Shown here: in pieces, positions 47,501-61,934 of the stretch
Layout of the letters: the number at the start of each line of letters is the position of its first letter
How positions within the stretch are numbered: position 1 is the first letter of the stretch
Source of the DNA: Arcuatula senhousia
Taxonomy: Eukaryota > Mollusca > Bivalvia > Mytilida > Mytilidae
Assembly: GCA_963971305.1 (NCBI GenBank)
Contig: OZ020311.1
Location: 6,696,001 to 6,760,000, forward strand
Direction: 5' to 3'
DNA: 64,000 nucleotides
Notes under the pieces: generated by a model
The model's database searches: none
Told to the model about the DNA's origin: nothing
Seen by the model: only the letters and a program-made list of their open reading frames with translations
Program-made: the position numbers and the translations under genes

Positions 47501-50500
47501 AGATATTTCAGAGAATAGCATTATTAAGTAAAAGCTAGTTTATTCAGAAGTTTTTTTTTTAATTGTGATGTAGATTTAGAAAGTTATGAGTTGAGTTCTG
47601 GAGTCTTAACTAAGGTCGTTTGGTAAAAAGATAGCTATAGGTTAAAATTGTAATGGAAAAGACGACATGAGACGACATTGTTGTCTGAGGCTTGGTTCCT
47701 GTTTCCGGAGAAATGAAAGGTTTAACATCTCAAACGTTAGACAGCCCTTTAACAATAAATGTACACACTGAAACCTAGTTTTGTTAAAGGATTAATTCAG
47801 CAAGGCTTATTCATTTTTCCTGATATTTGATATGTAAAAATTTTGCCTATAAGTATTGAATTGATTGGTGTGCCGTCACGTTACAAGTTCAAGATATTCT
47901 AAACAATTATGTCGTCTGTTATTGAGTCTCTCTAAAATAAAAATAAAAATAAAAGGTTTTTGTACTACCTTAATTAACAATGTTATGACGATCAATATAC
48001 AAATTAAAAGCTATTTTGAATAAATTTTGATGAAAAAGTATTGAGTTTATTGGTGACGTCATTAAAGTTGTCTAAACCCCCCATTTCTTGAGATCTACAT
48101 GGATATCAATATTACAGCATGACATAAAAAGCAGACTTCTGTTTTACATTGTACTCCTTCAATGAATGGAGGAGTAATTGACATTGTTTTAAGCTTTTCT
48201 CTAACTGGCCGTTTCAAAAAATGCGATTTCTTCATAGATATAACAGAATGCTTGTTTAAGTTGGGTTCTCCCGCCAAATTAATCGATTCCATGGTTAAAA
48301 CTGAATTCGAGAAATCTTAATCATGTTGCAAAAATGTAACAATATGCTTGTTCCTCATGATCCCGGGTTCAAATTCTGATGCATCTTATTTCAGTAGTAC
48401 TCTCTTTCATTAAATCTTTTTCAGCATATATTATTTGATAAGGAAGAAAACTGATTTTTCATTATACGTTTATCATAACAAATCTAGGTAAAATTTCAAG
48501 CTATGTGACTAGACTTTTTATACGACCGCAAAAAAATGCAGATGTATTATGGTCTGATTCTGTTGTTGTCGTCATCGTTATCGTCGTTTTGTTAGATAGT
48601 TATCTGGTTGCTCTGAAATATGACAATTATGTTTCTTACCATAAAAGAATGGATGGGATTGAGTTTCGGGGTCCTCCCTTTTTTCGTTTCGAAATAAGGG
48701 GCCAAAAAGGGGCTAAAAATGCTACTTTTTGTTTTGTTCCACAATAACTTTTGTTTTGGTTAACCAAATGTTGTGAAATTTTACAATTATGTTTCATACC
48801 ATAAAAAGGATGAATATGATTGATCTTGGAGATCCCCCTTTGTTTAGAAATAAGGGACCCAAAAGGGGCAAAAAAATTCAAACATTCAATAAGTGTCTAT
48901 AATAACTTTGGTTCTGGTTGGCCAATGGTTATGAAATTTGACAATGATATGCCTTACCATTAAACCATAGACAGAATTGAATTTTGTTTGTTTGTTTGTT
49001 TTTTGGGGGTTGGGGGTCCTCATTTCATTTAGAAATAAGGGCCTAATAAGGGGCAAAACATGCAACTTTTATTTCTGGTCTGATTTTGATTTGGGGGGGG
49101 GCAAATATTTTCTTGTGAAGTAGTGGATACAAATATGAGGATTAATTATTATTTTTTGTTATTATTATTATTTTTTTTTTGCTATTAAAAGTATTCTTGT
49201 CAAGTTGTGAATCTACAAAATTGAGGATTAATTTTGTGACACTCCCCTCCCCTTAATTGCCGTAAGAGGCCAAAAGGGGCAAAAATGAAAGGTAGCAGAT
49301 ACCTGAAATAAGGAGTCAAATGGGATAATATTTATTGACTAATTTATTTTGATTTCCTTTTGAAAAAAATGAATTCCTGTGAAATGTTGGTGGAATGTCC
49401 ACCAAAGGCTGCATGTGTCAAAAAAATTGTCAGTCCACCATGAGCTGCATGTATCGATATTAGGCCTAAAACGTACAGGGTTCGACATGTTGCGGTCGTA
49501 TCATGCTGCGCTCGGCGAAGCTTTTTATTTATACATTTATACATTTATACATGTATCGAAGAGAATCGAAAAGAACAACAAGAGATATGCAAAAAAGGTG
49601 TTAACAAATAACCCAACAGGGATGATCAATCTTATAAATCCAATATAAAAAGACAAAACAAGACAAAGACATTCCAGAGAAAATGATGATTACAATGGTC
49701 TTGACTTGGTACAGGCATTTCAAAAGAAAGTACTGTTTCATGGCACCAAACATGTCTTTCATTTCGATATTTTATAGGTCCGGATATATATATTATGCAT
49801 ATGGATATCAAGAATATTTTTCGATTTCTATTTTTTTCAAACTTTATTAACATTAACGTTATGATACTATTGGAAGATTGGATAGAAGTGTAAGAGCTGA
49901 CAATAGCGATGAGAAAGTTGGCTGTTGGTTCTGTGGTGAACATAATCATGTAACTCGTAATTGTCGCCACGGCGATTACTTAATGTGTCATAGATGTAAA
50001 GAACTTGGCCACAAAGAACGCTTTTGTAATTTTTAGGCAGTTGGCCAAGATGATTGTGCCGATTTAGGCAACAGTTCTGTCCCACCTTTCCCAAGTGACT
50101 CGTCACCTAGCAAACAATATTCGCGTCGCCACCGAAGGGGTGGCATAAAAAAGAATAAGCATAAAAATGGTCTTATTAATGTTAACTTTTTAAATGTAAG
50201 AGGTATGCGTAGTAAGATACATGAATTAAACAAGCATCTCGAGGACAATTCTCCTGAAATTTTCTGCATAGCAGAAACATTCCTCAAGACTGATGATAAA
50301 CCTAACCACCTACATAAGTCCTATAATTGGGTTGGAAAATGTAGAAAGCTTAATAAAAGCAAAGGCGGCATTGGTATTTGTATTAAATCAGATTTCCCAA
50401 TAATTGATGAAAACCTAAACGGGAGTAAGGAGGATAAATTTGAGCGTCTTTGGGTCTTAGGTCGAATAAATGGGGTAAAGACTGCGATAGGCGTAGCTTA

Positions 50501-53500
50501 CTTCCCTAATGATGGTACTGATAAGACTATGACTGATAGTCTGTTCTATGAGTTATTAGAGAATTGTGCCTCTTTTCCTCCCAAGGATATGAAATATGCC
50601 TTTCGGGTGATTTTAATGGCCGTTGTCTTAAACAGTGCGATATTTCTCGTAAGACTATTATCTTTGACAATAACCATAGTTATAACGGTCACCGATTAAA
50701 GCAATTTACCGAAGCGGCCGATTTGACTATCGCTAACGCTGTAGATCCATGTGAAGGTTTTCATACGAGAATTTTAAACAACCAACGATCGGCAATTGAT
50801 TACATTTTATTATCAAACAAACTTGCTGAAATTATCAGGCAAGTGTATATCGACGAAGAAGGCCAATACGACTTGCATAGCGATCATGTTATCCTAAGCG
50901 TCTCCTTGACTCAATCCAAATTGAAAAAGCGAACAAAAGTTCGGGTTGAGAATGATATTTCCTTCTGGAAAATCAATGATAGCACAAACTGGGACTCTTT
51001 CCAACAGTTGCTGGTCTCAGCTTTTCCTGACTCTTGGATCCAGGCTTCTCATGATATAAATGAAGTTTGGAACATCTGGAAAGGAAAAGTAAACAAGGCC
51101 GCAGAACAAACGATACCAAAAGCGTCAAGGGTTAAAAATTATCGTAACTTCTGGGACAAAGATCTGGCTAATATGTTGAAAGCGCGTCAAGACGCAAATA
51201 AGTTGCAACGCAGACATAACAAAAAACACCCATCTGACAGCGAATTGGGTAAATCTATATCCTCCTTGTACCGTAAGCGTAAGGAAACTCTACATAACGC
51301 TATCAAACAAAAAGAAATACAGGGTAAGATAAAGCTTTTCGAGAAAAATAAAGGTTACCAGAAAAATAGCAAGGCCTTTTGGAATCTCCTTAAAGGCCCT
51401 AGGGAAAAGCGAACTGTTAGTCAAATTATTGACCCTATGCGTAACAATAACCTGGTCGAAGATGAAGATGAGTTAAGTGAATGTCTTATCAAACACTTCG
51501 ACTCTATTGGTAAAGACACAACAATCACTACCGAATATAGAGAAAAAGTCTGTAATTTTATAAGCGAAAAACAGCATGCACATTTTTCCGATGAAAATAC
51601 TATGTCATTGCTGTTCACTAAAGAGTCCATTCTAAATTCCATCAAGAAACTTAAATCTGGGAAGGCGCCTTGTATAGACGGTATACCAAACGAGTTTTTG
51701 GAATATGGGGGCGAGGCCATTACACGAACTTTGGTAGATATGTTTACTCTAATGACGGACCTAGAGGTAATTCCCGACGAATGGCATAAAGGTATTATAA
51801 AACCCCTTCATAAATCGGGCTCGGTGTACAACCTAAATAATTATAGAGGAATAACGTTATCCTCGAATGTCTATAAGCTCTTTTCAAGAACGATTGAAAG
51901 TAAAATCGTTGAACACCTCGAGAATTCAAATATGTTAGGTGAATCCCAAGGGGCTTTCAGGAAAGATCGCAGAATCGAGGACCACATATTTACTTTACAG
52001 GGTATTTGCTCCCTTGCCAAATCATCTAAGAAACCCCTTTATATTGCATTCTTAGACCTGTCTAAAGCATTCGACAGAGTCTGGCGTGAAGGACTTTTAT
52101 TTAAACTGTGGGAAAGTGGAATCCAGGGTAAAACCTGGCGTTTGATAAAAGAGATCTATAGAAATGTTCAAAATAAGGTTCTATTTGGCGATATTGAGTC
52201 TGATTTCTTCGAGCAAGAATATGGGGTCAAGCAGGGTTGCATTTTATCCCCTACGCTTTTTTCTGTTCTTATGAATGATCTTGTTCAGATGTTGAACGAG
52301 AGCAATATCGGCGTAAACTTAGCATCTCAAGTGATTAATTGTCTTCTGTTTGCTGATGACGTGGTTTTATTTTCTAAATCACCTAAAGAGTTGCAAACAC
52401 AATTACAAATCTCCCACGAGTTTTCTAAAAAATGGAACTTAAAATTCAATGCAAGCAAATCTAAGGTGATGGCAATCGGTAAAAGAATAAACCAGAACGC
52501 AAACTGGAAACTGGGTGATGAGTCTCTTGAAGAAGTAACTGAGTATAAATATCTTGGTTACTATTTCAATAATTCCCTACGTTCAAATTATCATGTTAAC
52601 AAATACCTCCAGGAAAAGGGTGAAAATCAGATAAATTATATGATTCGTGTCCTTGAAGAGCATGGTGATTTTAACCGTTTTAATTTTGGCGATGCCTTAT
52701 GGAATTCTGTTGTGATGCCCTCGCTTACGCATGCATCTGCAGTTTGGATGCCTTTGTCTAACTCGAGTAAAGATATATTAGAACGACTACAGTATAAAGC
52801 TGCTAAAGTTATCATACGAACCAAACTAAATGTACCCAAGGTAGCTATCTTACTTGAGTTGGGATGGGAACCTATAACAGCTTTTATAGATCGACAAAGG
52901 GTCACCTATTTTCAGCGCCTTTTAGAACTTCCAGATCACCGATTATGTAAAATGGTATTTAATGAAATGCGGAATGAATCGAATGAATCTTTTTGGGGAT
53001 ATGAAAGTAAGATCTTGCAAACTATTTCCAATGTAAATAACACCAATGTCCCTATTGAAAGCCTAAATAAGAGGCATCTTACTGGTCTCATTGGATCTTA
53101 TACCAGGGAAAAACTCTTTGAAGAAGTACAATCTAAGAGTAGTCTAGATAACTATAGACAGTTCCATATTATAAAAGGAAGACAAGCGTATTTAAATGAA
53201 GGGAATTTCCGCGAATCTCGCCTTAAACTTCTTGCGCGAACGAAAACGCTGCCTATAAATGAATATCTCCATAGGATGAATATGTCGCAGCATAATACTT
53301 GCGATCTATGTACTGAAAACGTAAGCGAGGACCTCTCACATGTTTTATTTGATTGTCCAATCTATGACTATATTCGTAATGAATACTCAGAACTTTTAGA
53401 ATCCAATATTGACTTCCCATATCATACTGGAGAAAACTCAACTGTCTATTTCACAGAACTGTTGCCTAATACAAAGTTACAATTTTTAATTGGTGATATT

Positions 53501-56500
53501 GGATATGTTTTTAGCAATGATGTAGGACAATTTTATGATTGTTTAGGTAGAATGTTTCTAAGTGAATGTTTTAATTTAAGGTCCAAGCTTTTACAGGAAA
53601 ACTGAATAGACTTTTAATTGAAAGACATTTTATCTTTGTCAATATCATATTTTATAATTTCAATTTTGTTGTTGTTGTTGTTTTATAGGCTGAAAGAATG
53701 CATTTTATGTTTATAGTGTATATTTCAACTTGTATAGAATATTTATAGACGCGCCACTTTTATACCCTGGAAGTAGGCGCCCCCGTTGTGAAGGGGTAGA
53801 TCTAAATAAAATATATATAAATATATATAGACATGAATTTCGTTCTTTTATGAGATAACTGATTTAATATACCTGTATTGTATTAATGTTGTTATGTGCA
53901 ATGAAAAACAAAAACGACAATTTCTACCAAAAGCTTAAAACCTTTTACACGGTTGAATTCCATAGAATCGACTGATAAACCTAAACCAACTTAATAGTGT
54001 TTTGTAATTGCTTTCTGTGATTTAATTGTCCACGTCTTTAGTATCGATTTTCAAAATATTTTCAATCATTATGTAACTTTTGGTGGAACAATCTTCTATG
54101 CCATTGTTTTTTTTACATGAATTGCGATGCTTTGATTTGCTTCGATCCATCTGCTAACATTGACATTTTAATATAAAATTAAAGTCTTTCATCATCAATT
54201 CCGATAATGGTTCTTCAAGGGATGCTTTTAGTCTGATAATCATATAAACGTGTTTCCAATGGCTGAATTTGTTACGACATTCGGTAATTTAGTAAAACAA
54301 GAACTTTTAGGAGGTATTTGGCTTTTTATTTCCAAGATAACGTATACAAATGAAATGAAAAGTGCGGTAAAGTGCAAAATGCTTAACGTATTTCTATGAC
54401 GAAAAGCGGATCAATTGTCTATAAACGTTCTGATTTCATTTGGAAAACCAAGTCCTAAAAGCCATTCAGTTAATTTTTTCGCTGTGGCTGGAATAGAATT
54501 ATATACCCTCAGTATTGGGTAATTCTCAAATTTTAGAAAAAAAAATTGTTTGATCGTATTTTCTCAAATTTTAAAGCTTTAAAGTTCCCTGTCTATGTTT
54601 AAGATATGCTGCCCACAGTTGTGCATTACTTTTTGAATAATATTTCACAAGTAGAAATCAAAATAAAGAATAAAATGTTTTTGACTCAAAAAAGAGAGAG
54701 AGAAAAAACCACACGAATGTCTCTGAAAATATGACAGAAATAAAGTTTTTGATATTCCAAAGATTAAAAAATTGACGGAGATCCTTAGCTACTTAAAGTC
54801 TCAACCTTGGTTGAGTATATCATGATATAGAATTAATGGTTATTTTTTTTTTTTGGAAAAAAAAGTCGATAATAAATTGTATCGCCCTATTGTGAGGTTA
54901 ATATTGTGTTATCTTTAAACATTTTGCGAGTGATCAGACATGATTAGTGGGCCTACTATTAATGGCATAAATGATGTAAAACAGACATCCATTAAAAACA
55001 AATATTCATTTTTTTATTCTGAAACCTTTAATCCATCTATAATTGAGTACATTAATCTTGTTATTTTAAGAAGACGTTTGTCTTAATTAACATGAAATAA
55101 CTTGTAATGATATTTTTATGTCCCATCTACATATTGCTATGGTAGGTGCATCTAGTGATGATAAGCACATTGAATGCTTCGGATGCTGGATGTGACCTAT
55201 ATTTTCCGCATGAATGATCATGTACAGAAAAATGGTTAAAGTGTATTCCCACTTACTGCCACATCAACCATATTGGTATGGTATGTACACCTAGTGATGC
55301 TAAGCACAATGCATGCTTCGTATGCTGGCTGTGACCTATATTTTCCGCATGAATGACCACTTATAGAAGAATGGTTAAAGTCCATTCCCACTTACTGACA
55401 TGTGCCACATCTTCTATATTGTTATGTAGGTGCACCTAGTGATGCTTAGCACAATGTATACTTCGGATGCTGGCTGTGACCTATATTTTCCGCATGAATG
55501 ACCACTTATAGAAGAATGGTTAAAGTCCATTCCTTTTTACTGACATGTGCCACATCAACTATATTGATATGGTAGGTGCACCTAGTGATGCTTAGAACAA
55601 TGCATGCTTCGGATGCTGGCATTGACCTATATTTTCCGCATGAATGACCACTTATAGAAGAATGGTTGAATTAAAGTCCATTGCTTCTGACTGACAAGTG
55701 CCTTAATAGCAACCACGTTGATGCTTTAGTGATTGCAGAAAAAAATAAATGTTGCGAGATGGGGCATTATGTCTTTTGGACATATTCTTGTTCCATTTAT
55801 TTTTATACCACTGCGTGTAAATTCGCTACTTTTTGTTTTTGGTTCATATAAACTTATTTGTTCTATTCAATTGCCTTTTTACACAAATGAACCTTTTGAC
55901 TTCTCAATCACTTCGAGTATAGCTTTTATTTAATAGCTATTGAGCCCTTATTCCCTCCTTATCCTCTTGTTTCAGTCTGACCCCGTGTGACGATTTGTTT
56001 GAAAGTTGCTTCGTTCTGTTTGACTGTACACCTTTAAATTGCTTCTTTCTACTTTCTTGATGTTACTTTTTACTGTTGTTTTTTCCCTGTCATTTTAAGT
56101 AACATTGTCAAGGAAAATCAATGGATTTCTTATATACTTCACTTTTAAACATTTTTCTACATTATGGTTTTTGACGTTTGTTTCTCATTGTAGATTGTTC
56201 GTGCCTTTAACTTTATGTCAATTTAAATACCTTGTTAGCTCACCTGGACCGAAGGTCCAGGTGAGCTATTGCCATCACTTGGCGTCCGTCGTCGTCTGTT
56301 AACATACAAAAATCTTCTCCTCTGAAACTACTGAACAGAATTTAATGAAACTTGGTGTGAGTGGTCCTTAGGGTGTCGTGCACCAAACTTGTGTTTCGAT
56401 TTTTGATCCGTCAAAAAACATGGCCACCGTTACTAAAAATAGACCAGGAGGGTCAGACTACTGTTTTTGGCTTGTAAATCAAAAAGTATAAGATGGCATG

Positions 56501-58573
56501 AAATCTGATGCCATCCTACTGCTTCAGCATCAAAAGTTCTACAAAAGTGTCCATTTGGTCGAAGTTGTCAGATGATCCCTTATAGGGGTTACAGCCCCTT
56601 AAAGGTGAAAAATAGCGTTTTTTCATGTTTTTGGCTTACAAAATGCAAACTATTGCAGATAGAGAAAAGCTGTTGCTTGCTTAAATGTTCAGCTCATTTA
56701 GCTCTACAAAAGTCTCCATAGGGTCGCAGTTGTCAGATGACCCCTTATAAGGGGTTACAGCCCCTTAAAGGCGAAAAATAGTGTTTTTGGCCTATAGAAG
56801 GAAAACTTTTGCTGATAGAGAAAAGCTAATGCTTGCTTAAATGTTCAGCTCATTTAGTTCTACAAAAGTCTCAATAGGGTTGAAGTTGTCAGATGACCCT
56901 TTATAGGGGTTACAGCCCCTTAAAGGTGTTTTGGCCTATAGAATGAAAACTATTGCAAATAGGGAAAAGCTGTTGCTTGCTATAATGTTCAGCTCATTAA
57001 GCTCTACAAAAATCTCCATAGGTGTGAAGTTGTCAGATGACCCTTTATAGGGGTTACTGCCCCTTCAAGGCAAACAATAGTTTTTTGGCCTACAGAATGA
57101 AAACTATTGAAGATAGAGAAAAGCTTTTTCTTGCTTAAACATTCAGCTCATTTAGCTACACAAAAGTCTCCATAGAGTTCACATCAAGACCAGGTGAGCG
57201 ATTCAGGCTCCTGGGAGCCTCTTGTGTTTTAAATAAAGACCAATAAACCCATATTGTCCCATATTACGCATTGGCTACCTTTAGATTTGTTTAGATCTAT
57301 GTTTACATTTTTGTGCTTCCATAGTTTTTGAGGCTGGTTTCATCCACAAAAAGTGTTTGGTTTGTTCCACGTATAGTTTTACTGTTCTATTTGATCTGAC
57401 AGCATTTGTGATCTTGTTTTGTTAGGCCTATGTGCAGTCTATATAGTCCATTTAACGAACTTTATTTTGACCAATAGAGAAAAAGGCGGTAAAATTAACA
57501 ATATATTTCTTTTACAGACTTGGAACTCCAAACTATGTTTCCTAGATTCAGACAACGATGGGTTAACCAATGGAGAAGAACTAGGGGATCCTGGTTGTGA
57601 ATGGGTTCCTGGAACAGTGCCAGAAAATACTGTGAATATTTCACATCCAGGTAGGCCACATTTCTGTAACAATGTCAATATAATAAGGTCCAAAATTTTA
57701 GTGAACTTCTGCCCCAGGTAGAACTACATATAGCAAATTTCTCACCCAGGTAAGGCTAAAATTAGTAATTATGTTATACGTTTAATTCTAAATTTAGTTA
57801 ACTTCCAAGTCTGGTTAGTCTAAATTTAGTAATCATGTTATCCAAAATGGTCTAAATTTAGAAACTTTCTTATCCAGGTAAGTCTAAATTTAGTAATTTC
57901 ATCTAGGTAAATCTAAATTTAGTAATCATTTCATACAGGTTAGTCTAAATTTAGTAACTGTTTTTATCCAGGTAAGTCTATGTTTAGTCATTGTCACATC
58001 TAAGAAAATCAAAATTTAGTTACTCATCCAGGTAAGTCTAAATTTAATAACCTTCTGGGTCTTCTAATTTAGGCAAACTTAGTAACCCTATCATTCAGGT
58101 AAGTCTTGATGTTGATACCTTTTTCAACCAGTAAGTTTAAATTTGATAAAAACCTCCCCAGGCAAGTTTCAATTTGATAATCTTCTCAACCAGGAAACTG
58201 AAGAAATTATTATGGTTTTGAGTTTATTTTAGTTCCCATGTTAAAATGATTTGTGAAGAATGTAAAAGTTTAAAGTGTAGAACATAGGATACTAACAAAG
58301 ACGAACGATTAATCTTTTTTTTCAAATTTGAATCGTTACGTCTTTTATCATGACTTGCTACTCAGTAAAGTATAATTTTGAAAATACATAACCTGAGTAT
58401 GGTCGACCCTGCCTCTAAGAATTCATCAGACAATATATACATTGCTTTAAGCAGATAAATTATGCCTGTTCCCATAGAAAATTGATCATTTTAAATGACT
58501 CGTTACGTAGACATGTTTCAATATGATTCTGATTCACTATCTAATTGTTCTTACAGACGAAGCCTTAGTGTAA
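8574..58573 (+). CDS. Temptin-like secreted protein, join(8574..8579,10002..10196,57518..57650,58557..58573)
   Basis: Temptins are small secreted molluscan proteins; the Aplysia founder is a water-borne attractant pheromone component. The inferred product is about 116 residues. Residues 1-18 form a signal peptide (basic start, hydrophobic FYIVLVFPFCIG). The mature N-terminus (FQKFQNLIPNG) is followed by VPNPC, the WDGLGHINPRGG and RNPFGMDF blocks typical of temptins, then TW…LC, an acidic loop DSDNDGLTNGEE of the calcium-binding DxDxDG kind, LGDPGCEW and a C-terminal ISHP. All three junctions agree in phase (0, 0, 1). Exons 2 and 3 rest on protein similarity and exons 1 and 4 on splice logic. 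Introns are 1.4, 47.3 and 0.9 kb. No symbol is given because the orthologue cannot be fixed from here. Confidence 0.75.
10002..10196 (+). CDS. Temptin-like gene exon 2 (signal peptide and N-terminal half)
   Basis: The exon follows the acceptor ATTTGTAG and ends at AAG|GTTGGT, 65 codons in phase 0. It encodes the hydrophobic signal core FYIVLVFPFCIG and then the temptin N-terminal blocks (IPNGQKVPNPC, GLGHINPRGG, RNPFGMDF). The donor GTTGGT is weak. The open frame runs only four codons past the donor before TAA. Temptin proteins continue with a tryptophan segment after this point, which is what exon 3 begins with, 47 kb away. Confidence 0.88.
10625..10880 (+). repeat. tRNA-Val-like SINE
   Basis: The head GCCCGATACTGTAGTGGTTA then ACACGTC resembles the 5' half of tRNA-Val including the A box. 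About 35 bases later AGTTCGTGGCTCGATC resembles a B box. The unrelated tail runs to about 10880. It is a decayed single copy in intron 2. Confidence 0.6.
11755..12965 (-). pseudogene. Degenerate LINE reverse transcriptase fragment
   Basis: Read on the minus strand from 12965 downward, pieces of a non-LTR retrotransposon ORF2 appear in order. They are a KNGKALGLDQIPPG-like block near 12500, then LSLPSKVLVRVAVERIK, then GPSCTDQIAVLRCIIKQS followed by a NFVD remnant of RT motif A near 12100. After a deletion that removes the FADD catalytic region comes the C-terminal block GLQVFVNKGLRQIL, ending near 11755. Stops and frameshifts are frequent. The layout resembles RTE-like LINEs, but the clade is not certain. 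It is antisense to the host gene and inactive. Confidence 0.75.
13621..14395 (+). mobile_element. HINE-like element, family F2, copy 2
   Basis: The 5' hairpin is GTCTCGCCTGCGACGAATAG followed by TCGCTGAAGGCGAGAC, with a CGAA in the loop, then a GGCGGCGGCG tract. About four monomers of about 180 bp follow, each with 'AACTTTTTTGTAAGACTTTT', 'GGTATACAGACAGTT' and 'GTGACCCTGACCCCAT'. The 3' end has TGCCGGCATGCGAGACATAC as in copy 1. The monomers differ from copy 1, so this is a subfamily sharing only the ends. Confidence 0.75.
14525..16887. mobile_element. Giant palindromic transposon T2, copy 1
   Basis: The 2,363 bp element starts TATGGCACGTCAAACG and ends CGTTTGACGTGCCATA. Its arms are inverted copies of each other for about 1 kb (to about 15540 and from about 15910), leaving a loop of about 370 bp. 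TTAAC flanks both sides (14520-14524 and 16888-16892), a candidate 5 bp target duplication; TA duplication is the alternative. The outer arms are AT-rich 22 bp-like repeats (TTCAAAAACTTACAAATATA). Inner arms and loop carry sequence related to the 3' end of PLE family 1. There is no transposase. The left and right arms differ mainly by one repeat unit, so insertion is recent or the arms are being homogenised. Confidence 0.9.
16888..17639. other. AT-rich intronic stretch
   Basis: No gene and no repeat that I can assign. Confidence 0.4.
17640..18500 (+). repeat. Intronic duplicated module (a), first copy
   Basis: The segment GAGACGATGGATTATCATAT then CAGATATCTCTG is shared with 23.13 kb and 35.1 kb, as is the following 'catgctgaaa' stretch. 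Two inverted copies of the 'AAACAGGATCTA' motif occur at about 18340 and 18460; the forward form is in module (c) elsewhere. It is non-coding. Confidence 0.55.
18903..20298. mobile_element. Palindromic transposon T2, copy 2 (internally deleted)
   Basis: The ends are the same as copy 1 (TATGGCACGTC… and …GACGTGCCATA), with the same AT-rich repeats and the same PLE-3'-end-like block in both arms. It is 1,396 bp because the inner arms and loop of copy 1 (about 15250-16160) are missing; the arms meet at about 19618-19650. No 5 bp duplication is visible (tccta and ttttt), but TA lies at both ends. It encodes nothing. Confidence 0.88.
20450..20800 (+). repeat. Intronic duplicated module (d), copy 1
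   Basis: Marked by GGTGACGTCATTTAAGTCGT then CTGTAACC, 'attacatcatgacatgcaaatag', and TGTGATTGACATTGGTTTAA followed by GCTCTCAGAAGCC. The same order recurs at 23.9, 31.1, 35.85, 40.1, 43.9 and 48.05 kb in the same orientation. Confidence 0.65.
21010..21926 (-). mobile_element. HINE-like element, family F2, copy 3
   Basis: Reverse orientation. The 5' head is at the right (GCTCTGCTTCGCAGGCGAGAC, ending near 21920) and the 3' end at the left (AACAAGAGTTAACACTAAAG near 21008, then 'TCGCATGCCGGCA'). About four monomers carry GGGCATATGCATACCAAG and GGTCAAGGTCAAAAGATGGG, closely matching the monomers of copy 1. Confidence 0.78.
22100..22260 (+). repeat. Intronic duplicated module (f), copy 1
   Basis: Contains 'gtattacgtcactcaat', AGAGGTACTTTGGCGACAAC, TGAATTGAGCAATAAACAGC and 'gagtcattgacgtaaaac'. 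The same run occurs at 32.0, 32.2 and 42.76 kb. Confidence 0.65.
22420..22790 (-). repeat. Tandem repeat family F8, inverted copy
   Basis: Three degenerate units with TTCTATAAGTGGTCATCTAT and 'gcatgcgctgtgctcag' are the reverse complement of the units at 55.13-55.73 kb (ATGACCACTTATAGAAGAAT). The 106-codon forward frame is a by-product. Confidence 0.6.
23120..24270 (+). repeat. Intronic duplicated block α, modules a-c-d
   Basis: Module (a) at 23125 (GATTGGCATATCAGTGATCT), module (c) at about 23484 ('ctgtcatctgaagcctggttc', 'GTTTCCGGAGAGCTGAAAGG') and module (d) at about 23915 follow in the order seen again from 35.1 kb. At about 23200 a short inverted piece of PLE family-2 end (GCAGAGGTACCAATGGGG) is embedded. 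Confidence 0.6.
25668..26401 (+). mobile_element. Helitron-like element, family F4, nested in T1
   Basis: It begins with TC after a host A (A25667|TC) and ends CTAG before a host T (CTAG26401|T). The 5' end is a strong hairpin, CCCCGCGCT-agcga-AGCGCGGGG. The 3' end has the subterminal inverted repeat GCGCGGGG, then hairpin GCAGC-gtg-GCTGC (26380-26392) five bases before CTAG. These are the hallmarks of a Helitron inserted between A and T. Inside are three monomers with 'TTTGATAATGCCCCTAGGGG' and 'CTGAAACTTGGCT'. There is no Rep-helicase coding. Confidence 0.82.
26415..26810 (+). mobile_element. HINE-like fragment related to family F5, nested in T1
   Basis: It opens TATACCCTCGACTTTAAGAA then CAGGGGTATA (a hairpin), followed by GTCTGTCCGTTCGTTCGTAC. 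Two degenerate monomers repeat GTACATACATGCAAAATTTT and 'ttggggtataatacc'. The right end is unclear. Confidence 0.45.
28370..29470 (+). repeat. Intronic duplicated block α, modules g-h-i
   Basis: Three modules recur in the same order at 37.88-39.73 kb. They are (g) 'tttcatctcgatgt' with 'attggactcttct' and 'aattcagaacagtc'; (h) 'caattgataaaaac' with 'gttatttct'; and (i) TATATCATTTTCATTGCTCC, 'ttgacctcatgctgct', TCTAGCCAGTAATAAATAAA, and 'gatgacttaagatcatagag'. Module (i) also occurs at about 45.77 kb. No coding was seen. Confidence 0.65.
29472..30911 (-). mobile_element. HINE-like element, family F3, copy 1
   Basis: Reverse orientation. The 5' hairpin is at the right (CTCACATGACCCTTCGGGTC then AGGTGAG, 30882-30909; in sense CCCGAAGGG at the loop) beside the GGACGCCAAGTGATG head. 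The 3' end is at the left, with hairpin AGGCTCccaGGAGCCT and CTCACCTG as subterminal inverted repeat. About 2.5 monomers of about 510 bp each hold TTTTTAGCCACAGCGGCCAT (about 29705, 30215, 30713) and 'TTGGACTTAAAGTGTCAGAG'. Confidence 0.8.
31070..32340 (+). repeat. Intronic duplicated block α, modules d'-f-f
   Basis: Module (d') at 31075-31520 is nearly identical over about 400 bp to 40080-40525, including TGAAGTGAGGATTTCGAATC and 'atatgaaatgttgcctgaaaatagg'. Module (f) follows twice, at 32005 and 32215, with TTGAATTGAGCAATAAACAG in each. Confidence 0.7.
33620..34612 (+). mobile_element. HINE-like element, family F1, copy B
   Basis: It starts TTTTTATACGATCGCAAAC with a GTCGTCGTCGTCGT tract. 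Four degenerate monomers follow with 'CACAATAACTTTAGTTCTAG', 'GGGCAAAA' and 'CCTTACCATTAAACCATA'. Then come GCATGTGTCCAGAACAATTG and an end with GGTCGTATATAGCTGCGCTC then GCCGAAGCTTTTTAT. The end holds the subterminal inverted repeat of the head and a short GCTGCGCTCGCCGAAGC hairpin. Confidence 0.75.
34740..35065. repeat. Palindromic GC-island repeat
   Basis: CTATTTCCCTAGGGATATAG occurs in two variants (about 34749 and 34779). GGCGTGGC occurs twice (34850, 34881). A hairpin-forming core has GGTACTTACCATTTCCCTCG, then GCGCTACGCGC and a near-inverse ending GTAAGTACC. AACAATTG lies near both ends (34932 and 35037), so the right half may be one small palindromic element. No coding was seen. Confidence 0.5.
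35095..36115 (+). repeat. Intronic duplicated block β, modules a-c-d
   Basis: The order is the same as 23.1-24.2 kb: GATTGGCATATCAGAAATCT (module a), 'caatgtcgtctgaagcctggttcc' with TTTCCGAAGAGCTGAAAGG (c), then 'gcgattatcactaaaatgtcg' and 'aattaataaatttcattgttaa' (d). Confidence 0.65.
36170..36945 (-). mobile_element. HINE-like element, family F5
   Basis: Reverse orientation. The right-end head reads, in sense, ACCCCCGCTTGAAAAGGGGT (a hairpin with a GAA loop) then GTCCGTCCGCCCGTCC. Four monomers of about 175 bp repeat 'GGTGCACATCTACAT', TTTCATGAAAATCC, TTTAGGAGGAGTTGCGGATA and 'AGTCCATGTTTTGCTATGG'. The left end has TACCCCCGCCCCC. Confidence 0.72.
37048..37820 (+). mobile_element. HINE-like element, family F1, copy C
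   Basis: It starts TTTTTATACGACCGCAAAA with GTTGTCGTCGTCGTC, has about three monomers with GGGGCCCAAAAGGGGCCAAA, and ends TTGCGGTCGTATCATGCTGC followed by GCTTGGCGAAGC. Head and tail carry TACGACCGCAA in inverted form. Confidence 0.78.
37880..38169 (+). repeat. Intronic duplicated block β, module g
   Basis: It matches 28.39-28.72 kb: 'cttctctgatatggttcaatg', 'ttctgttttatagcttcaacattttatt', TTTTCATCTCGATGTGATGG and 'gagatattggactcttct'. The next bases enter a minus-strand PLE 3' end. Confidence 0.6.
38170..38695 (-). pseudogene. PLE family-1 3' fragment (P3)
   Basis: On the minus strand the last PLE coding block is seen near 38690-38560 (LIRHRFLRDRLLEQGYKK, as downstream of the RT at 59.8 kb). 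It is followed by the family-1 3' sequence, with CCTCAATATCCCTATTGTGT, 'GATCGCAATGGAAGAGGGAG' and CCAAGTCAGGACCATTACGA. The 96-codon frame in the 3' part also appears as a frame in the 60.0 kb copy but looks like UTR. Confidence 0.65.
38925..39455 (-). pseudogene. PLE family-2 C-terminal fragment (P2)
   Basis: Minus strand 39454-39206 is an uninterrupted 82-codon piece of a PLE protein: SQLIRYSRACGTFIDFLSRA, the LTQKLLTQGYV and LKKFYGRHH blocks, and KYGISISQISADVG, ending in a stop. The family-2 3' end follows (ACGGGTGTGCTATAGCAAGC in sense) and closes with CCCATTGGTACCTCTGCTTC near 38930. The RT core is absent. It lies 230 bp from P3 in the same orientation. Confidence 0.75.
39456..41500 (+). 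repeat. Intronic duplicated block β, modules i-d' with local tandem copy
   Basis: Module (i) at 39456-39730 and module (d') at 40080-40525 match 28.98-29.29 and 31.07-31.52 kb. A tandem duplication shifted by about 365 bp follows: TGCTGGATTTGGCTTTCCT at about 40624 and 40987, and ATATCGATATACAGC at about 40722 and 41105. Another partial (d') tail lies at 41165-41480. Confidence 0.65.
41647..41780. other. Cluster of short perfect hairpins
   Basis: Three strong inverted repeats lie within 134 bp: TATAGTC-gt-GACTATA (41647-41662), TGTCATGGG-8-CCCATGACA (41702-41727) and CTGCTCCA-19-TGGAGCAG (41746-41780), the last extended outward by TGTC/GACA. The local base composition is more GC-rich than its surroundings. 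It is either a structured RNA remnant or the end of an unknown element. Confidence 0.5.
42640..42905 (+). repeat. Intronic duplicated module (f), block β
   Basis: 'tacgtattacgtcatttaat', TTCTTTGGCGACAACTTTAT, TGAATTGAGCAATAAACAAC and 'gattctttgacgtaaaag' match 32.0 and 22.1 kb. The preceding 'tttccgggtcacttctgcttcataactttatctgc' also matches 31.92 kb. Confidence 0.65.
43018..43349. mobile_element. MITE with GATCGATC palindromes
   Basis: A 332 bp element flanked by TA on each side, with 14 bp inverted ends GACCCCGTTTACAC and GTGTAAACGGGGTC. TA duplication suits a Tc1/mariner-type MITE. The interior has four AAAGATCGAT(C)TTT-type palindromes and repeated 'GAATCGATT'. It encodes nothing; the 103-codon frame across it is chance. 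Confidence 0.8.
43400..44270 (+). repeat. Intronic duplicated block γ, modules c-d
   Basis: GATCCTGTTTCCGACATTCA with 'gatgaaaggttttgcgt' (c) is followed by GGTGACGTCTTAATTAAGTC (d), 'gttattgatatcggtttaagctc' and 'caagtgtcacaatattta', as in the other blocks. Confidence 0.6.
43687..43713 (+). repeat. (TG)n microsatellite
   Basis: About 13 uninterrupted TG units followed by a short TATATA run. Confidence 0.95.
44385..44770 (-). repeat. PLE family-1 3' end fragments (P6)
   Basis: Two overlapping degenerate minus-strand copies. 'AACACAAAACAAAACACAGT' and 'GTGGTCATCTCAGTA' are followed by 'AAAATTACCGAACTCGGAGG' and 'CCTCCCTCCTCATTGCGATC', then a second 'ATGATCATCTCATCA'. They match the sequence after the RT at 60.0-60.26 kb. 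No coding is retained. Confidence 0.6.
44830..45000 (+). repeat. Intronic duplicated module (g'), block γ
   Basis: TTTTTAGTCTGATAATCAAA and 'atttccaatggttgaacttgttacgg' are shared with 54.2-54.33 kb, and less closely with 28.55 and 38.08 kb. Confidence 0.55.
45345..45625 (+). repeat. PLE family-2 3' end fragment (P7)
   Basis: 'ccggatttgacc', GACGGGTGTGCTATAGCAAG, TTACTCTTCCGGAGCACCCG and 'gactggagttcacgttgctg' match the ends of P1 and P2. No RT sequence precedes it. Confidence 0.65.
45640..45980 (+). repeat. Intronic duplicated module (i), block γ
   Basis: 'tatcacttttattgctc', 'tttgacctcatgctgcta', 'cttgctgttatattg' and 'gacttacgatctaagagatt' follow the order of 28.98 and 39.46 kb with more divergence. 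Confidence 0.55.
46134..47397 (+). mobile_element. HINE-like element, family F1, copy D
   Basis: The head TACGACCGCAATTTTTTGCG then ATCGTAT is a near-perfect hairpin, followed by repeated GTCGTTGTCG. About four long monomers hold 'GGGGTCAAAAAGGGGCCA' and TTGTATTCCTCAATAAATTC. The 3' end has GCATGTGTCCAAGGCATTTG, TTGCGGTCGTATCATGCTGC and GCTCGGCGTAGC. Confidence 0.78.
47500..48420 (+). repeat. Intronic duplicated block, modules c-d
   Basis: 'gttgtctgaggcttggttcctg' with TTTCCGGAGAAATGAAAGG (c), then GGTGACGTCATTAAAGTTGT, 'tattacagcatgaca' and 'ttgacattgttttaagc' (d). It is the same order as blocks α, β and γ. Confidence 0.6.
48514..49528 (+). mobile_element. HINE-like element, family F1, copy E
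   Basis: It starts CTTTTTATACGACCGCAAAA and ends TTGCGGTCGTATCATGCTGC then GCTCGGCGAAGCTTTTTAT. CTTTTTAT is present at both edges. Three to four monomers hold 'CACAATAACTTTTGTTTTGG', 'GTGAAATTTTACAATTATGT' and 'GGGGCCAAAAAGGGG'. Confidence 0.8.
49640..49795 (-). repeat. PLE family-1 3' end fragment (P5)
   Basis: 'ATTCCAGAGAAAATGATGAT' with GGTCTTGACTTGGTACAGGC and 'TTTCATGGCACCAAACATG' matches the minus-strand PLE 3' ends at 38.2 and 44.6 kb. It ends about 60 bp before the 5' end of the LINE. Confidence 0.55.
49857..50036 (+). CDS. LINE gag-like zinc-knuckle segment (5' truncated)
   Basis: The open frame from 49857 to the TAG at 50034-50036 ends with two CX2CX4HX4C knuckles, CWFCGEHNHVTRNC and CHRCKELGHKERFC, separated by eleven residues. 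This nucleic-acid-binding module closes ORF1 in many LINEs. The frame upstream is cut by the element's truncation. The following endonuclease lies in the same frame after the TAG, so either ORF1 and ORF2 are separated by a single stop or the TAG is a mutation in a fused ORF. It would bind the element RNA. Confidence 0.8.
   Translation, partial: RYDTIGRLDRSVRADNSDEKVGCWFCGEHNHVTRNCRHGDYLMCHRCKELGHKERFCNF
50037..50605 (+). CDS. LINE AP-type endonuclease, N-terminal part
   Basis: In the frame of the zinc knuckles the sequence continues with a basic linker (SRRHRRGG, about 50120-50150), then INVNFLNVRGMRSK, the start of an exonuclease/endonuclease/phosphatase fold, and FCIAETFL with the catalytic glutamate. 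The first in-frame ATG is at 50205. The frame then runs to 50699, but the family sequence leaves it near 50600 because of a one-base frameshift: the conserved GDFN motif is in the next frame. Role: nicking target DNA for target-primed reverse transcription. Confidence 0.82.
50564..53605 (+). CDS. LINE endonuclease C-terminus and reverse transcriptase
   Basis: The frame is 1,013 codons; the meaningful part begins near 50600. It completes the endonuclease with GDFNGR (~15-20), SAIDYILLS and SDH (106-108). The RT follows: a GKAPCIDGIPNEFL block, NNYRGITLSSNVYKLFS, the QGAFRKDR block, AFLDLSKAFDRVW (motif A, ~495), GVKQGCILSPTLFS (motif B), LLFADDVVLFSKS with the catalytic FADD (~595) and a KCNIMAIGK-like KSKVMAIG. 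Near ~912 is CDLC-x8-H-x4-C (CDLCTENVSEDLSHVLFDC). No in-frame stop interrupts the RT, so it could still be functional. Listed start codons upstream of the frameshift are artefacts. Confidence 0.92.
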   Translation: MCLFSSQGYEICLSGDFNGRCLKQCDISRKTIIFDNNHSYNGHRLKQFTEAADLTIANAVDPCEGFHTRILNNQRSAIDYILLSNKLAEIIRQVYIDEEGQYDLHSDHVILSVSLTQSKLKKRTKVRVENDISFWKINDSTNWDSFQQLLVSAFPDSWIQASHDINEVWNIWKGKVNKAAEQTIPKASRVKNYRNFWDKDLANMLKARQDANKLQRRHNKKHPSDSELGKSISSLYRKRKETLHNAIKQKEIQGKIKLFEKNKGYQKNSKAFWNLLKGPREKRTVSQIIDPMRNNNLVEDEDELSECLIKHFDSIGKDTTITTEYREKVCNFISEKQHAHFSDENTMSLLFTKESILNSIKKLKSGKAPCIDGIPNEFLEYGGEAITRTLVDMFTLMTDLEVIPDEWHKGIIKPLHKSGSVYNLNNYRGITLSSNVYKLFSRTIESKIVEHLENSNMLGESQGAFRKDRRIEDHIFTLQGICSLAKSSKKPLYIAFLDLSKAFDRVWREGLLFKLWESGIQGKTWRLIKEIYRNVQNKVLFGDIESDFFEQEYGVKQGCILSPTLFSVLMNDLVQMLNESNIGVNLASQVINCLLFADDVVLFSKSPKELQTQLQISHEFSKKWNLKFNASKSKVMAIGKRINQNANWKLGDESLEEVTEYKYLGYYFNNSLRSNYHVNKYLQEKGENQINYMIRVLEEHGDFNRFNFGDALWNSVVMPSLTHASAVWMPLSNSSKDILERLQYKAAKVIIRTKLNVPKVAILLELGWEPITAFIDRQRVTYFQRLLELPDHRLCKMVFNEMRNESNESFWGYESKILQTISNVNNTNVPIESLNKRHLTGLIGSYTREKLFEEVQSKSSLDNYRQFHIIKGRQAYLNEGNFRESRLKLLARTKTLPINEYLHRMNMSQHNTCDLCTENVSEDLSHVLFDCPIYDYIRNEYSELLESNIDFPYHTGENSTVYFTELLPNTKLQFLIGDIGYVFSNDVGQFYDCLGRMFLSECFNLRSKLLQEN
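53831..54169. other. AT-rich intronic stretch
   Basis: I see nothing assignable here after the LINE tail. Confidence 0.4.
54170..54340 (+). repeat. Intronic duplicated module (g'), last copy
   Basis: 'atggttcttcaagggatgc', TTTTAGTCTGATAATCATAT and 'ttccaatggctgaatttgttacg' match 44.84-44.95 kb. Confidence 0.55.
54341..55129. other. AT-rich intronic stretch
   Basis: No coding exon and no assignable repeat. Confidence 0.4.
55130..55730 (+). repeat. Tandem repeat family F8
   Basis: Four units of about 145 bp start near 55146, 55283, 55430 and 55576. Each contains 'CACCTAGTGATGCTWAGCACA', TGTGACCTATATTTTCCGCA and TGAATGACCACTTATAGAAG. The array resembles the monomer core of a HINE, but I could not identify terminal hairpins. 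An inverted relative is at 22.42-22.79 kb. Confidence 0.75.
56235..57226 (+). mobile_element. HINE-like element, family F3, copy 2
   Basis: It opens with a perfect 13 bp hairpin with GAA loop: GCTCACCTGGACC-gaa-GGTCCAGGTGAGC (56238-56266). Then come 'cacttggcgtccgtcgtcgtc' and TTTAATGAAACTTGG. About four units of about 150 bp hold GTTGTCAGATGACCCCTTAT and 'ggggttacagccccttaaagg'. The 3' end has the subterminal inverted repeat CCAGGTGAGC, hairpin AGGCTC-ctgg-GAGCCT (57205-57220) and CTTGTG. It is opposite in orientation to copy 1. Confidence 0.85.
57518..57650 (+). CDS. Temptin-like gene exon 3 (calcium-loop half)
   Basis: Acceptor TTTCTTTTACAG, 133 bases, phase 0 in and phase 1 out, donor CCAG|GTAGGC. 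It encodes TWNSKLCFLDSDNDGLTNGE and continues ELGDPGCEWVPGTVPEN to ISHP. The DSDNDGLTNGEE run is an EF-hand-like acidic loop, and LC, GC and the tryptophans match temptin C-terminal halves. The native donor is weaker than several copies in the array that follows. If unspliced, the frame stays open 23 more codons to TAG at 57720, adding a tail with two cysteines. Confidence 0.9.
57651..58200 (+). repeat. Minisatellite of 5' splice-site-like units
   Basis: About 14 degenerate units of about 30-35 bp have the consensus ATCCAG-GTAAGTCTAAAT followed by TTAGTAA, beginning at the exon-3 donor itself. GT sites in near-consensus context lie at 57750, 57814, 57878, 57939, 57972, 58032, 58099 and 58131. 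Those at 57878, 57972, 58032 and 58099 are perfect CAG|GTAAGT. A GC variant (CAG|GCAAGT) is at 58162. CTAAATTTAG in each unit is itself palindromic. Confidence 0.85.
58557..58573 (+). CDS. Temptin-like gene exon 4 (C-terminal end)
   Basis: A good acceptor (AATTGTTCTTACAG) is followed by ACGAAGCCTTAGTGTAA. With the G left from exon 3 this reads Asp-Glu-Ala-Leu-Val-stop. Phase fits, and an AATAAA lies 33 bases after the stop, so the gene appears to close here. Temptins usually have glycine after the His-Pro at this point; Asp is unusual, so a different terminal exon or use of the read-through tail remains possible. Confidence 0.55.
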
Positions 58574-58605
58574 CGACTTTAATCATTTACTGAAAAGAAT
58601 GAAAC

Positions 58606-58611
58606 AATAAA
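58606..58611 (+). terminator. Polyadenylation signal of temptin-like gene
   Basis: AATAAA lies 33 bases downstream of the inferred stop at 58571-58573. The 3' UTR would be only about 50-60 bases. Confidence 0.55.
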
Positions 58612-59099
58612 AAGACAGATGAAATTTTCAGTAATGTAAACATCGTTAAGAATATAAACATGATAAATCGAATTTAGATCTCCACACGTGCATTAGATTA
58701 CAATAAGTATTTTGATTTAAAACCTTAAATCTGCAAATTTCAATTGAAACATGTGACGTCAACATTCGAAATCTTTTCGGTGCATTTAAATGATCTTTAA
58801 TTTCTGAACTTTTTTATTTTAATCTATATAATTTTAAATTTATATGTTATTTTAAAACCTTGTTACCATGTTATTTTCAGTTTTAATATATCTCGGTGCA
58901 TTAGATGTTATCATAGATTTTGATTGTCCTTAACATATAGATGTAAAATATCAATTGAAAATAGGGGTCACCATTCATTTCATTTTTTTTTAAGTGAAAC
59001 TTCAATTTTTCTATATAGAATATGTGGATCAGAAAGCTATAGAAGAACCATAGAAATAATTCCCATCAAAATCTGGAGTAGAATCCATATTCAAAAGTT

Positions 59100-60280
59100 C
59101 TTTGAAATATTTTTTTTAATAGGATCACCGTCCTTTTGTTGCAAGATATTTATTTCCTGTTTAATCTACTTCAAAAATGTCGCCTGAAAAAACTTCTCGA
59201 AAAAGCCTTTTCAAACTCTAGGAATTTTGTTGTTTTGGGTTATAATTCTACATTATTTTCCAAAACATCTTTCAAAGATAAAATTTGTTACACACTGGGA
59301 CAAGTTTGCAGTATGCTTGATTTCCTCATTGACAACATATTTGTCACCTTCGGAGTAGAGATTTTTCAACAACAAATCGGCATTCCAATGGGCACAAACT
59401 GTGCTCCTCTCCTCGCCGATTTGTTTTTATACTCTTCCGAGACTGAATTTCTTCAGGGACTCGTAAAGAACAAGAATATGAAAGAGGCAAGGTCATTTAA
59501 TCTTGCATTCAGATATATTGATGATGTCCTTTCTGTCAATAACACTCCATTTGGTAGATGGGTTCCTTCAATAAATCCTTTACAATTGGAGATTAAAGAG
59601 ACCACCGAATCAAATTGCTTCACGTCTTTCTTGGATTTGCACCTAGAATTTGACCCAGGTGGTCATCTCAGTACAAAAATTTACGATAAACGAGGCGATT
59701 TTAATTTTCAAATTATTAATTTTCCTAATCTACAGAGCAATATACCTACTTCCCCTGCATACGGTGTTTATATTTCACAACTTATTCGATATGCCAGAGC
59801 TTGCACACATTTCACAGATTTTTGATCAGACACCGATTTCTTCGTGATCGACTTTTGGAGCAGGGCTATAAAAAAATACGTCTCATACGATCCCTAAAAT
59901 ATTCTTTCTTCGTTATCAGCCACTAGAAAAGTTCAAAATTGAGTTAAAAGATAATGGTAGTTAATTGTTTTAATTAGTGTTTGACTGGTCTGCTGTACTG
60001 AGACGTCACCTCAACATCCCTATTGTGTCTCACAACTATGTTGTGTTCTATGGTCATTACCGGATCCTAAGATCGCAATGGAAGAGGGAGGTTTGGCGCC
60101 ATAAAACCTGGTTTAACCCACCATTTCGTTTGAAATGCCTGTACCAAGTCAGGACCATTGCGATCCACCAATTCTCCGGTATGACTGATTCGTTTTCGTC
60201 ATTTTCTCTGGACTATGAGATTGATCATTCAAGTTCGGTAGTTTTGTTATTACCTTTATTAATTAGGTAGCGGCATGTTA
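59100..60280 (+). mobile_element. Penelope-like element P4 (family 1), 5' truncated
   Basis: The RT core is at 59136-59825. One extra T in a T-run near 59821 shifts the last coding block out of frame (LIRHRFLRDRLLEQGYKK, then RLIRSLKYS). The family-1 3' sequence follows to about 60275 (CCTCAACATCCCTATTGTGT, 'GATCGCAATGGAAGAGGGAG', 'CAAGTTCGGTAGTTTTGTTA'). It lies downstream of the temptin poly(A) signal. No GIY-YIG endonuclease domain remains. Confidence 0.85.
59136..59825 (+). CDS. PLE reverse transcriptase fragment
   Basis: The 229-codon frame holds the middle of a Penelope-like RT: LDFLIDNIFVTFG (61-73), IGIPMGTNCAPLLADLFLYS (81-100, motif B), FRYIDDVLSVN (125-135, catalytic YIDD), SCFTSFLDLHLEF-like SNCFTSFLDLHLEF (~158-172), GHLSTKIYDKRGDFNF, and SQLIRYARACTHFTDF at the end, where a frameshift ends the frame. 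Catalytic residues are intact but the N-terminal third and the endonuclease are missing, so it is not autonomous. The first codons (about 1-17) are probably not native. Confidence 0.88.
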   Translation: MLQDIYFLFNLLQKCRLKKLLEKAFSNSRNFVVLGYNSTLFSKTSFKDKICYTLGQVCSMLDFLIDNIFVTFGVEIFQQQIGIPMGTNCAPLLADLFLYSSETEFLQGLVKNKNMKEARSFNLAFRYIDDVLSVNNTPFGRWVPSINPLQLEIKETTESNCFTSFLDLHLEFDPGGHLSTKIYDKRGDFNFQIINFPNLQSNIPTSPAYGVYISQLIRYARACTHFTDF

Positions 60281-61631: not shown

Positions 61632-61905
61632 TGATGATGAGTTTCATTATGTGATGATACTTTGTCATTATATGATGGTACTTTGTCATTATGTGATGGT
61701 ACTTTGTCATTATGTGATGGTACTTTGTCATTATGTGATGATACTTTGTCATTATGTGATGGTACTTCTTCATTATGTGATGATACTTTGTCATTATGTG
61801 ATGGTACTTCTTCATTATGTGATGATACTTTGTCATTATGTGATGATACTTCTTCATTATGTGATGATACTTTGTCATTATGTGGTGATACTTTGTCTTT
61901 ATGAG
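61632..61905 (+). repeat. 21 bp minisatellite, ~13 units
   Basis: The unit TGATGATACTTTGTCATTATG (21 bp) varies at few sites (GGT/GAT, TTGTC/CTTC). Because 21 is divisible by three, several frames on both strands stay open and give heptapeptide repeats such as KYHHIMT. Nothing suggests that these are translated. Confidence 0.92.
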
Positions 61906-61934
61906 ATCAAAGTTTATTATTATGAACAGCGCTG

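Follow-up and report, generated by a model that had tools for sequence, protein, structure and literature searches.

The 64-kb window studied here (G000:C9:6696001-6760000, the whole stretch of DNA analysed, taken from the 1.036-Gb assembly that was used for genome searches) carries a Temptin-type coding exon, "exon 3", whose end is followed without interruption by a minisatellite of splice-donor-like units. We favour, with a probability of about three in four, a combined reading in which this array is a mirage-type minisatellite, the native donor is still used, the downstream copies are mostly passive, and the array is one of several independent ones in the genome. According to two amphioxus reports, mirages are minisatellite-like tandem repeats over an exon/intron boundary, often with AG/GT, at either exon end (PMC3087553, PMC3902484). 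The sequence-only reading from which this work started knew of no named repeat class of this kind, but mirages are such a class, and a human study names a splice-donor minisatellite in IFI6 (PMC4526556). The class is therefore already known, and the new part is its scale, as such arrays are unexpectedly common across this genome.

In the mechanism we propose, a short tandem duplication would have taken in the end of the exon with its 5' splice site and about 20 nucleotides (nt) of intron, leaving the first donor intact beside the exon. Unequal exchange or slippage would then have expanded the array to 18 units, with all copies intronic. Such growth would be tolerated because everything past the first donor is intron. 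Arrays of this kind would arise independently at exon ends, each from its own exon's sequence, and the spliceosome most likely keeps the first donor, the downstream copies being mostly passive, decaying decoys.

Wrap-around alignment resolves 18 units (Table 1), where about 14 had been counted before. The array is continuous from 57639 with unit starts spaced 28-36 nt, and units at 57671, 58053 and 58087 close two gaps left in an ungapped unit family. The first unit takes in the last 12 nt of the exon; the unit comprises 12 exonic and about 20 intronic nt, in register, the exonic part being strong and the intronic part marginal. Agreement of this unit with the refined consensus, at 26 of 31 positions, falls within the 21 to 30 matches of the other units; the consensus was built from all 18 units, the exon-edge unit among them. 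Downstream, GT is retained in 10 of 17 units, and the intron runs ~345 nt beyond the array to the next exon.

Most likely, the array was seeded by the exon/intron junction itself. This had been proposed from the overlap of the first unit with the exon edge, and it is borne out in that the intronic units carry exon-tail sequence (unit consensus TTTCTCATCCAG vs TTTCACATCCAG in the exon). The nine exonic nt ahead of the donor core score higher against the consensus than all 5000 of 5000 random windows from paralog flanks. Coding-tail sequence within intronic units is what seeding predicts, while the match alone does not prove the intronic half. The exon tail encodes a motif ending in HPG in 20 of 20 exons (the present exon and 19 paralogs), with GT next in all of them. 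Because HPG is encoded in every one, the exon very likely predates the array.

The paralogs were collected with a 45-residue query from the exon, which retrieved 21 genome rows, that is, at least 20 exons, the present one included, and one weak partial row. Two of them, judged by their sequence, carry junction-spanning arrays beyond doubt. In L017, a 65-bp unit is repeated 10 times, and the exonic stretch of its first copy agrees with the consensus at 53 of 58 nt; in L027, about 9 units of about 80 bp are present and the corresponding match is 72 of 74. Both arrays are composed of the exon's own tail and donor, and on this evidence the two paralogs settle the mechanism in kind. L015, L022 and L032 have single weaker exon-end copies. 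Six of the 20 Temptin exons show donor-side duplication at p<0.01, and three of the 20 (L017, L020 and L026) show acceptor-side duplication at p=0.003, with acceptor positions set crudely and AG absent in several rows, L020 and L026 included. Exon starts thus seem to be affected as well as exon ends, in agreement with the effect at both ends in amphioxus.

A second copy of the array lies on contig C1450 (L009, 3313-4860). It is longer, with 32-bp units in 24 copies by Tandem Repeats Finder (TRF) and about 30 by alignment. Its flanks are 81% like window 54842-55119 and 77% like window 58452-58743, the exon-4 region around the last coding piece. Exon 3 was not detected on C1450 by tblastn with 20 exon translations (best E=0.22 in the first 10,000 bases and E=0.10 in the remaining 3,628). 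The core ATCCAGGTAAG is common to the two arrays and the consensus units have otherwise drifted apart, which would follow from homogenisation of units within each locus. C1450 may be a decayed duplicate, a divergent haplotype or a partial misassembly. A (TC)n run lies ahead of its array.

Two other origins were rejected. Gain of the intron by tandem duplication of AGGT is ruled out by the HPG codons and GT in all 20 exons and by the ~345 nt of intron beyond the array. A copy of a dispersed repeat is rejected as well, since a DNA search, which skips very common words, located the array nowhere but at this locus and on C1450.

Exon-end arrays elsewhere in the genome

Arrays of donor words were sought genome-wide as three copies of CAGGTAAGT at gaps of 10-40 nt, the control being the same pattern read backwards. 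The donor pattern gives 351+43 = 394 matches and the control 1+3 = 4, while single copies of the word are fewer than those of its reverse (8,725 vs 12,535). A second donor word, AAGGTAAGT, gives 136+22 = 158 matches against 6+0 = 6. The permuted control word CAGTGAAGT yields 23 matches in 2 arrays and its own reverse 44 matches, whose arrays are not listed; the controls comprise these few words. Each long array contributes many matches, so that these are not independent of one another. Among the matches listed, which reach C6:48.4 Mb (about 42% of the assembly), the CAGGTAAGT pattern represents at least 12 distinct arrays with differing units, which extrapolates to roughly 29 genome-wide, provided that the list follows contig order. 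The AAGGTAAGT pattern falls in at least 13 places among the matches listed, two of them alike. The window's own array escapes the CAGGTAAGT pattern because its perfect copies are too far apart, and the 12 listed arrays have other units than it has, so that units are locus-specific. By extrapolation, the likelihood of lying in a short-period array is for the donor word ~10 times that for its reverse.

The sequence before the first unit of the 12 listed arrays was inspected and then aligned to the unit. Sequence just 5' of the first donor is copied in 11 of them. In 10 (L035, L066, L067, L068, L069, L071, L072, L073, L074 and L075), 12-75 nt of pre-donor sequence lie inside the first unit at 93-100% identity to the unit. 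In the eleventh, L065, the second array repeats 34 nt of the exon tail, once at 97% identity and again at 88-91%. L068 follows a KChIP-like exon (KChIP2, E=2.2e-25; EF-hand) whose match reaches the last residue before the donor, and L069 encodes Meckelin (E=2.4e-17). A further set picked from the CAGGTAAGT words listed up to C1:4.09 Mb contains one more probable exon-end array, L076 (72 bp x 3, no Pfam match), and L077, a pair of words 30 nt apart without an array. The same set includes L078 (376001-377600), part of a 66-bp satellite at G000:C1:376226-393539 that apparently exceeds 17 kb and whose units carry CAAGTAAGT or CAGGTAAGT. In L017, L027, L067, L071, L074 and L075, a long exonic part of the unit is joined to a short intronic part of about 6-9 nt, which stops just beyond the donor hexamer; in arrays from the word search, the way of finding them accounts for part of this.

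Exon-end duplication seems to be general in this genome, and Temptin exons are at most mildly enriched in it. A copy of the exon end within the next 340 nt occurs at p<0.01 in 6 of 20 Temptin vs 4 of 40 myosin-head exons (Fisher p=0.07), the latter being the first 40 of 87 rows, with stop-containing rows included and row ends not always exon ends. By eye, two of the four passing myosin cases span the donor: L091, and L104 with an exact 25-nt duplication, ACCAGTCCTGTTTGATTAC/GTAAGT. The other two are L090, a 63-bp array with an uncertain connection to the exon end, and L102, where the match does not stop at an exon end. Kinase matches made a poor control, as they are mostly long open frames plus one tandem cluster. 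G000:C5:32732633-33034581 and C740:35569-44722 hold dozens of kinase-domain frames, mostly of 249 aa and many equal-scoring, those on C5 in long runs at about 1806-bp spacing.

Tolerance alone cannot explain the excess of donor words, as neutral DNA also tolerates control words. This leaves a raised rate of birth or growth at exon ends, or selection; with the few control words used, the former fits the conservation data described below better. It is conceivable, if doubtful, that tandem arrays in this genome are born preferentially at splice donors, or at exon ends generally, as a result of damage or copying at 5' splice sites that is linked to transcription or to the spliceosome.

Possible splicing role of the copies and rival explanations

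The exon closes in phase 1, with ...ISHP plus one base, at CATCCAG/GTAGGC, and both the frame and the paralogs suggest that the native donor at 57651 is the one used. Its copies include stronger sites. The computed duplex energy with the U1 5' end is -10.7 kcal/mol for the native CAG/GTAGGC, whereas the four perfect copies reach -12.1 and the one at 57747 reaches -11.5. The earlier count of four perfect CAG/GTAAGT copies holds exactly, and no other CAGGTAAGT occurs on either strand of the window; the number of sites stronger than the native donor, given as four, becomes five by U1 pairing. The predicted read-through past the donor into a TAG near 57720, with a two-cysteine tail, is also found, the two cysteines standing before the in-frame stop.

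Conservation of the donor core was compared in four arrays chosen without selecting for perfect cores (the window, C1450, L017 and L027). Among nine-column windows of the unit, the core ranks 14 of 32, 25 of 32, 22 of 65 and 77 of 80, with means for core and rest of 0.778/0.770, 0.853/0.902, 0.914/0.885 and 0.819/0.917, respectively. In none of the four is the core among the best-kept stretches. Since useful donors or U1 sites should be better kept than the spacers, this pattern favours the copies being passive decoys. Selection keeping the donors is disfavoured by the same ranks.

Several observations weigh against the combined reading. On average the core is kept slightly better than the remaining columns in two of the four arrays (0.778 vs 0.770; 0.914 vs 0.885). 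Resemblance to the consensus is just marginal in the intronic part of the first unit (p=0.056), and L030, a paralog with no array by the donor-side duplication test, equals the locus over the whole junction (34 and 34), scoring as high because the coding tail is common to the paralogs. Among the 12 listed arrays, L070 has an exonic copy of only 5 nt, and protein support is strong in only two, L068 and L069. Three have Pfam matches below the cut-off (L065, 7tm_1, 0.0085; L067, NAC, 0.062; L073, cNMP, 0.13), and the pieces of L066, L070, L071, L072, L074 and L075 match no Pfam family. These six and L035 rest at best on an open frame after an acceptor, L035, L070 and L074 being the least clear exon cases. 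Pieces of L071 and L067 gave nothing useful against PDB.

The array might instead supply working alternative donors, as in human IFI6, yielding transcripts that end early with the tail GRPHFCNNVNIIRSKILVNFCPR or are decayed. We consider this improbable. Five array sites do pair with U1 better than the native donor, and IFI6 is reported to use two downstream repeat units as donors (PMC4526556). Yet the best-kept stretches of the unit do not include the donor core, GT is lost in 7 of 17 downstream units, and the amphioxus mirages reportedly leave splicing undisturbed (PMC3087553, PMC3902484).

It is very unlikely that an unrelated intronic minisatellite happens to lie beside the exon, its likeness to the exon edge reflecting splice consensus and chance. 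The window is dense in minisatellites (44 TRF rows), and the marginal intronic half of the first unit (p=0.056) would fit such an origin. The exonic part of that unit, however, is unmatched in 5000 random windows, clear junction copies exist in L017, L027, L067, L071, L074 and L075, and donor words far exceed control words in arrays.

Hardly credible is selection of the copies as extra U1 sites (vs early polyadenylation) or as AG/GT dual-specific or recursive sites stepping through the intron, for although intact units, by eye, have the dual-specific form (partly pyrimidine-rich, then CAG/GTAAGT), the core shows no special conservation in 4 of 4 arrays, and introns are usually longer than a 32-nt step, so that only multi-unit steps could splice. 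Introns spliced by dual-specific sites are enriched within human tandem repeats, according to one study (PMC10809524), which speaks for such selection.

Gene context and other features of the window

Table 1. Positions of the exon-3 array and associated features in the window
Feature	Position	Strand	Basis or remark
Temptin_C (PF24784) coding exon, "exon 3"	57518-57650	+	Pfam E=4.5e-17; TTTTACAG acceptor, GT donor present
Junction-spanning minisatellite, 18 units of ~32 nt, consensus TTTCTCATCCAGGTAAGTCTAAATTTAGTAAC	57639-58211	+	wrap-around alignment
Native splice donor GTAGGC (CAG/GTAGGC)	57651-57656	+	7/9 to CAGGTAAGT
In-frame TAG if native donor bypassed	57719-57721	+	translation of read-through
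Perfect donor consensus CAGGTAAGT, copy 1/4	57875-57883	+	word match
Perfect donor consensus CAGGTAAGT, copy 2/4	57969-57977	+	word match
Perfect donor consensus CAGGTAAGT, copy 3/4	58029-58037	+	word match
Perfect donor consensus CAGGTAAGT, copy 4/4	58096-58104	+	word match
Last coding piece after TTACAG: DEALV + stop TAA	58557-58573	+	probable

A comparison of open frames of at least 25 residues, taken from 1500-nt flanks of the paralogs, with window 40001-57500 did not reveal exons 1 and 2 of this gene among its best 25 matches. Two open frames in the window resemble reverse transcriptases. One, of 1017 aa at 50552-53605, looks by eye like that of a non-long terminal repeat retrotransposon, and the other, at 59106-59825, contains RYIDDVL and is presumably Penelope-like. 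A 21-bp minisatellite at 61644-61907 has 12.6 copies at 90% and is open in several frames on both strands. Four arrays of similar 21-22-bp units lie at 14555-14892, 16565-16857, 18961-19267 and 19904-20261, two of which are, by eye, the reverse complement of the other two.

Relation to known systems

In the reports cited here, mirages come from a handful of amphioxus genes. These reports name Adh3, the globins BflGb6 and BflGb9, troponin C and PGBD5, of which PGBD5 was added and troponin C cited by the later report (PMC3087553, PMC3902484). Like those mirages, the present unit spans the boundary and holds both exon and intron sequence, more clearly so in L017 and L027; it is locus-specific and unrelated between genes; and its copies carry AG/GT signals, with GT in 10 of 17 downstream units and four perfect donors. 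Unlike them, it comes from another animal, probably a mollusc and, judging by the genome type and Temptin, perhaps a bivalve; it is known here from the sequence of one assembly, and belongs to arrays at many loci that can be counted against control words.

Related structures in other systems share some of these traits, as far as the cited papers describe them. In human IFI6 (6-16), tandem units with donor consensus also stand at an exon end and serve as donors in mRNA (PMC4526556), whereas for the present array donor strength is computed from U1 pairing. Human dual-specific AG/GT sites in the tandem repeats of UBC and VCX3A likewise have fixed spacing, but those repeats are coding, with introns removed between one unit and the next (PMC10809524), while the present array lies inside an intron that extends ~345 nt past it. 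Internal tandem repeats at human exon-intron boundaries, in recent paralogs within segmental duplications, resemble it in their units of about 30 bp at exon ends and differ in being primate and in having transcript support for new introns (PMC2812944). In Drosophila, intron gain by tandem duplication of proto-splice sites has been described (PMC2891723). Among the papers listed in searches of the open-licence literature, we saw neither a mollusc or bivalve case of exon-end arrays nor a count of such arrays against control words. A literature search on Temptin likewise brought up nothing of use.

The same structure is seen here in what is probably another phylum, with several independent cases within one family and in unrelated genes. 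This recurrence makes the rate of array formation, the position bias and the effect on splicing measurable. It bears on how exon ends are chosen accurately among stronger decoys, and on the origin of new introns. If splice donors or exon ends are indeed hotspots for array birth, the arrays would continually supply new introns and exon ends.

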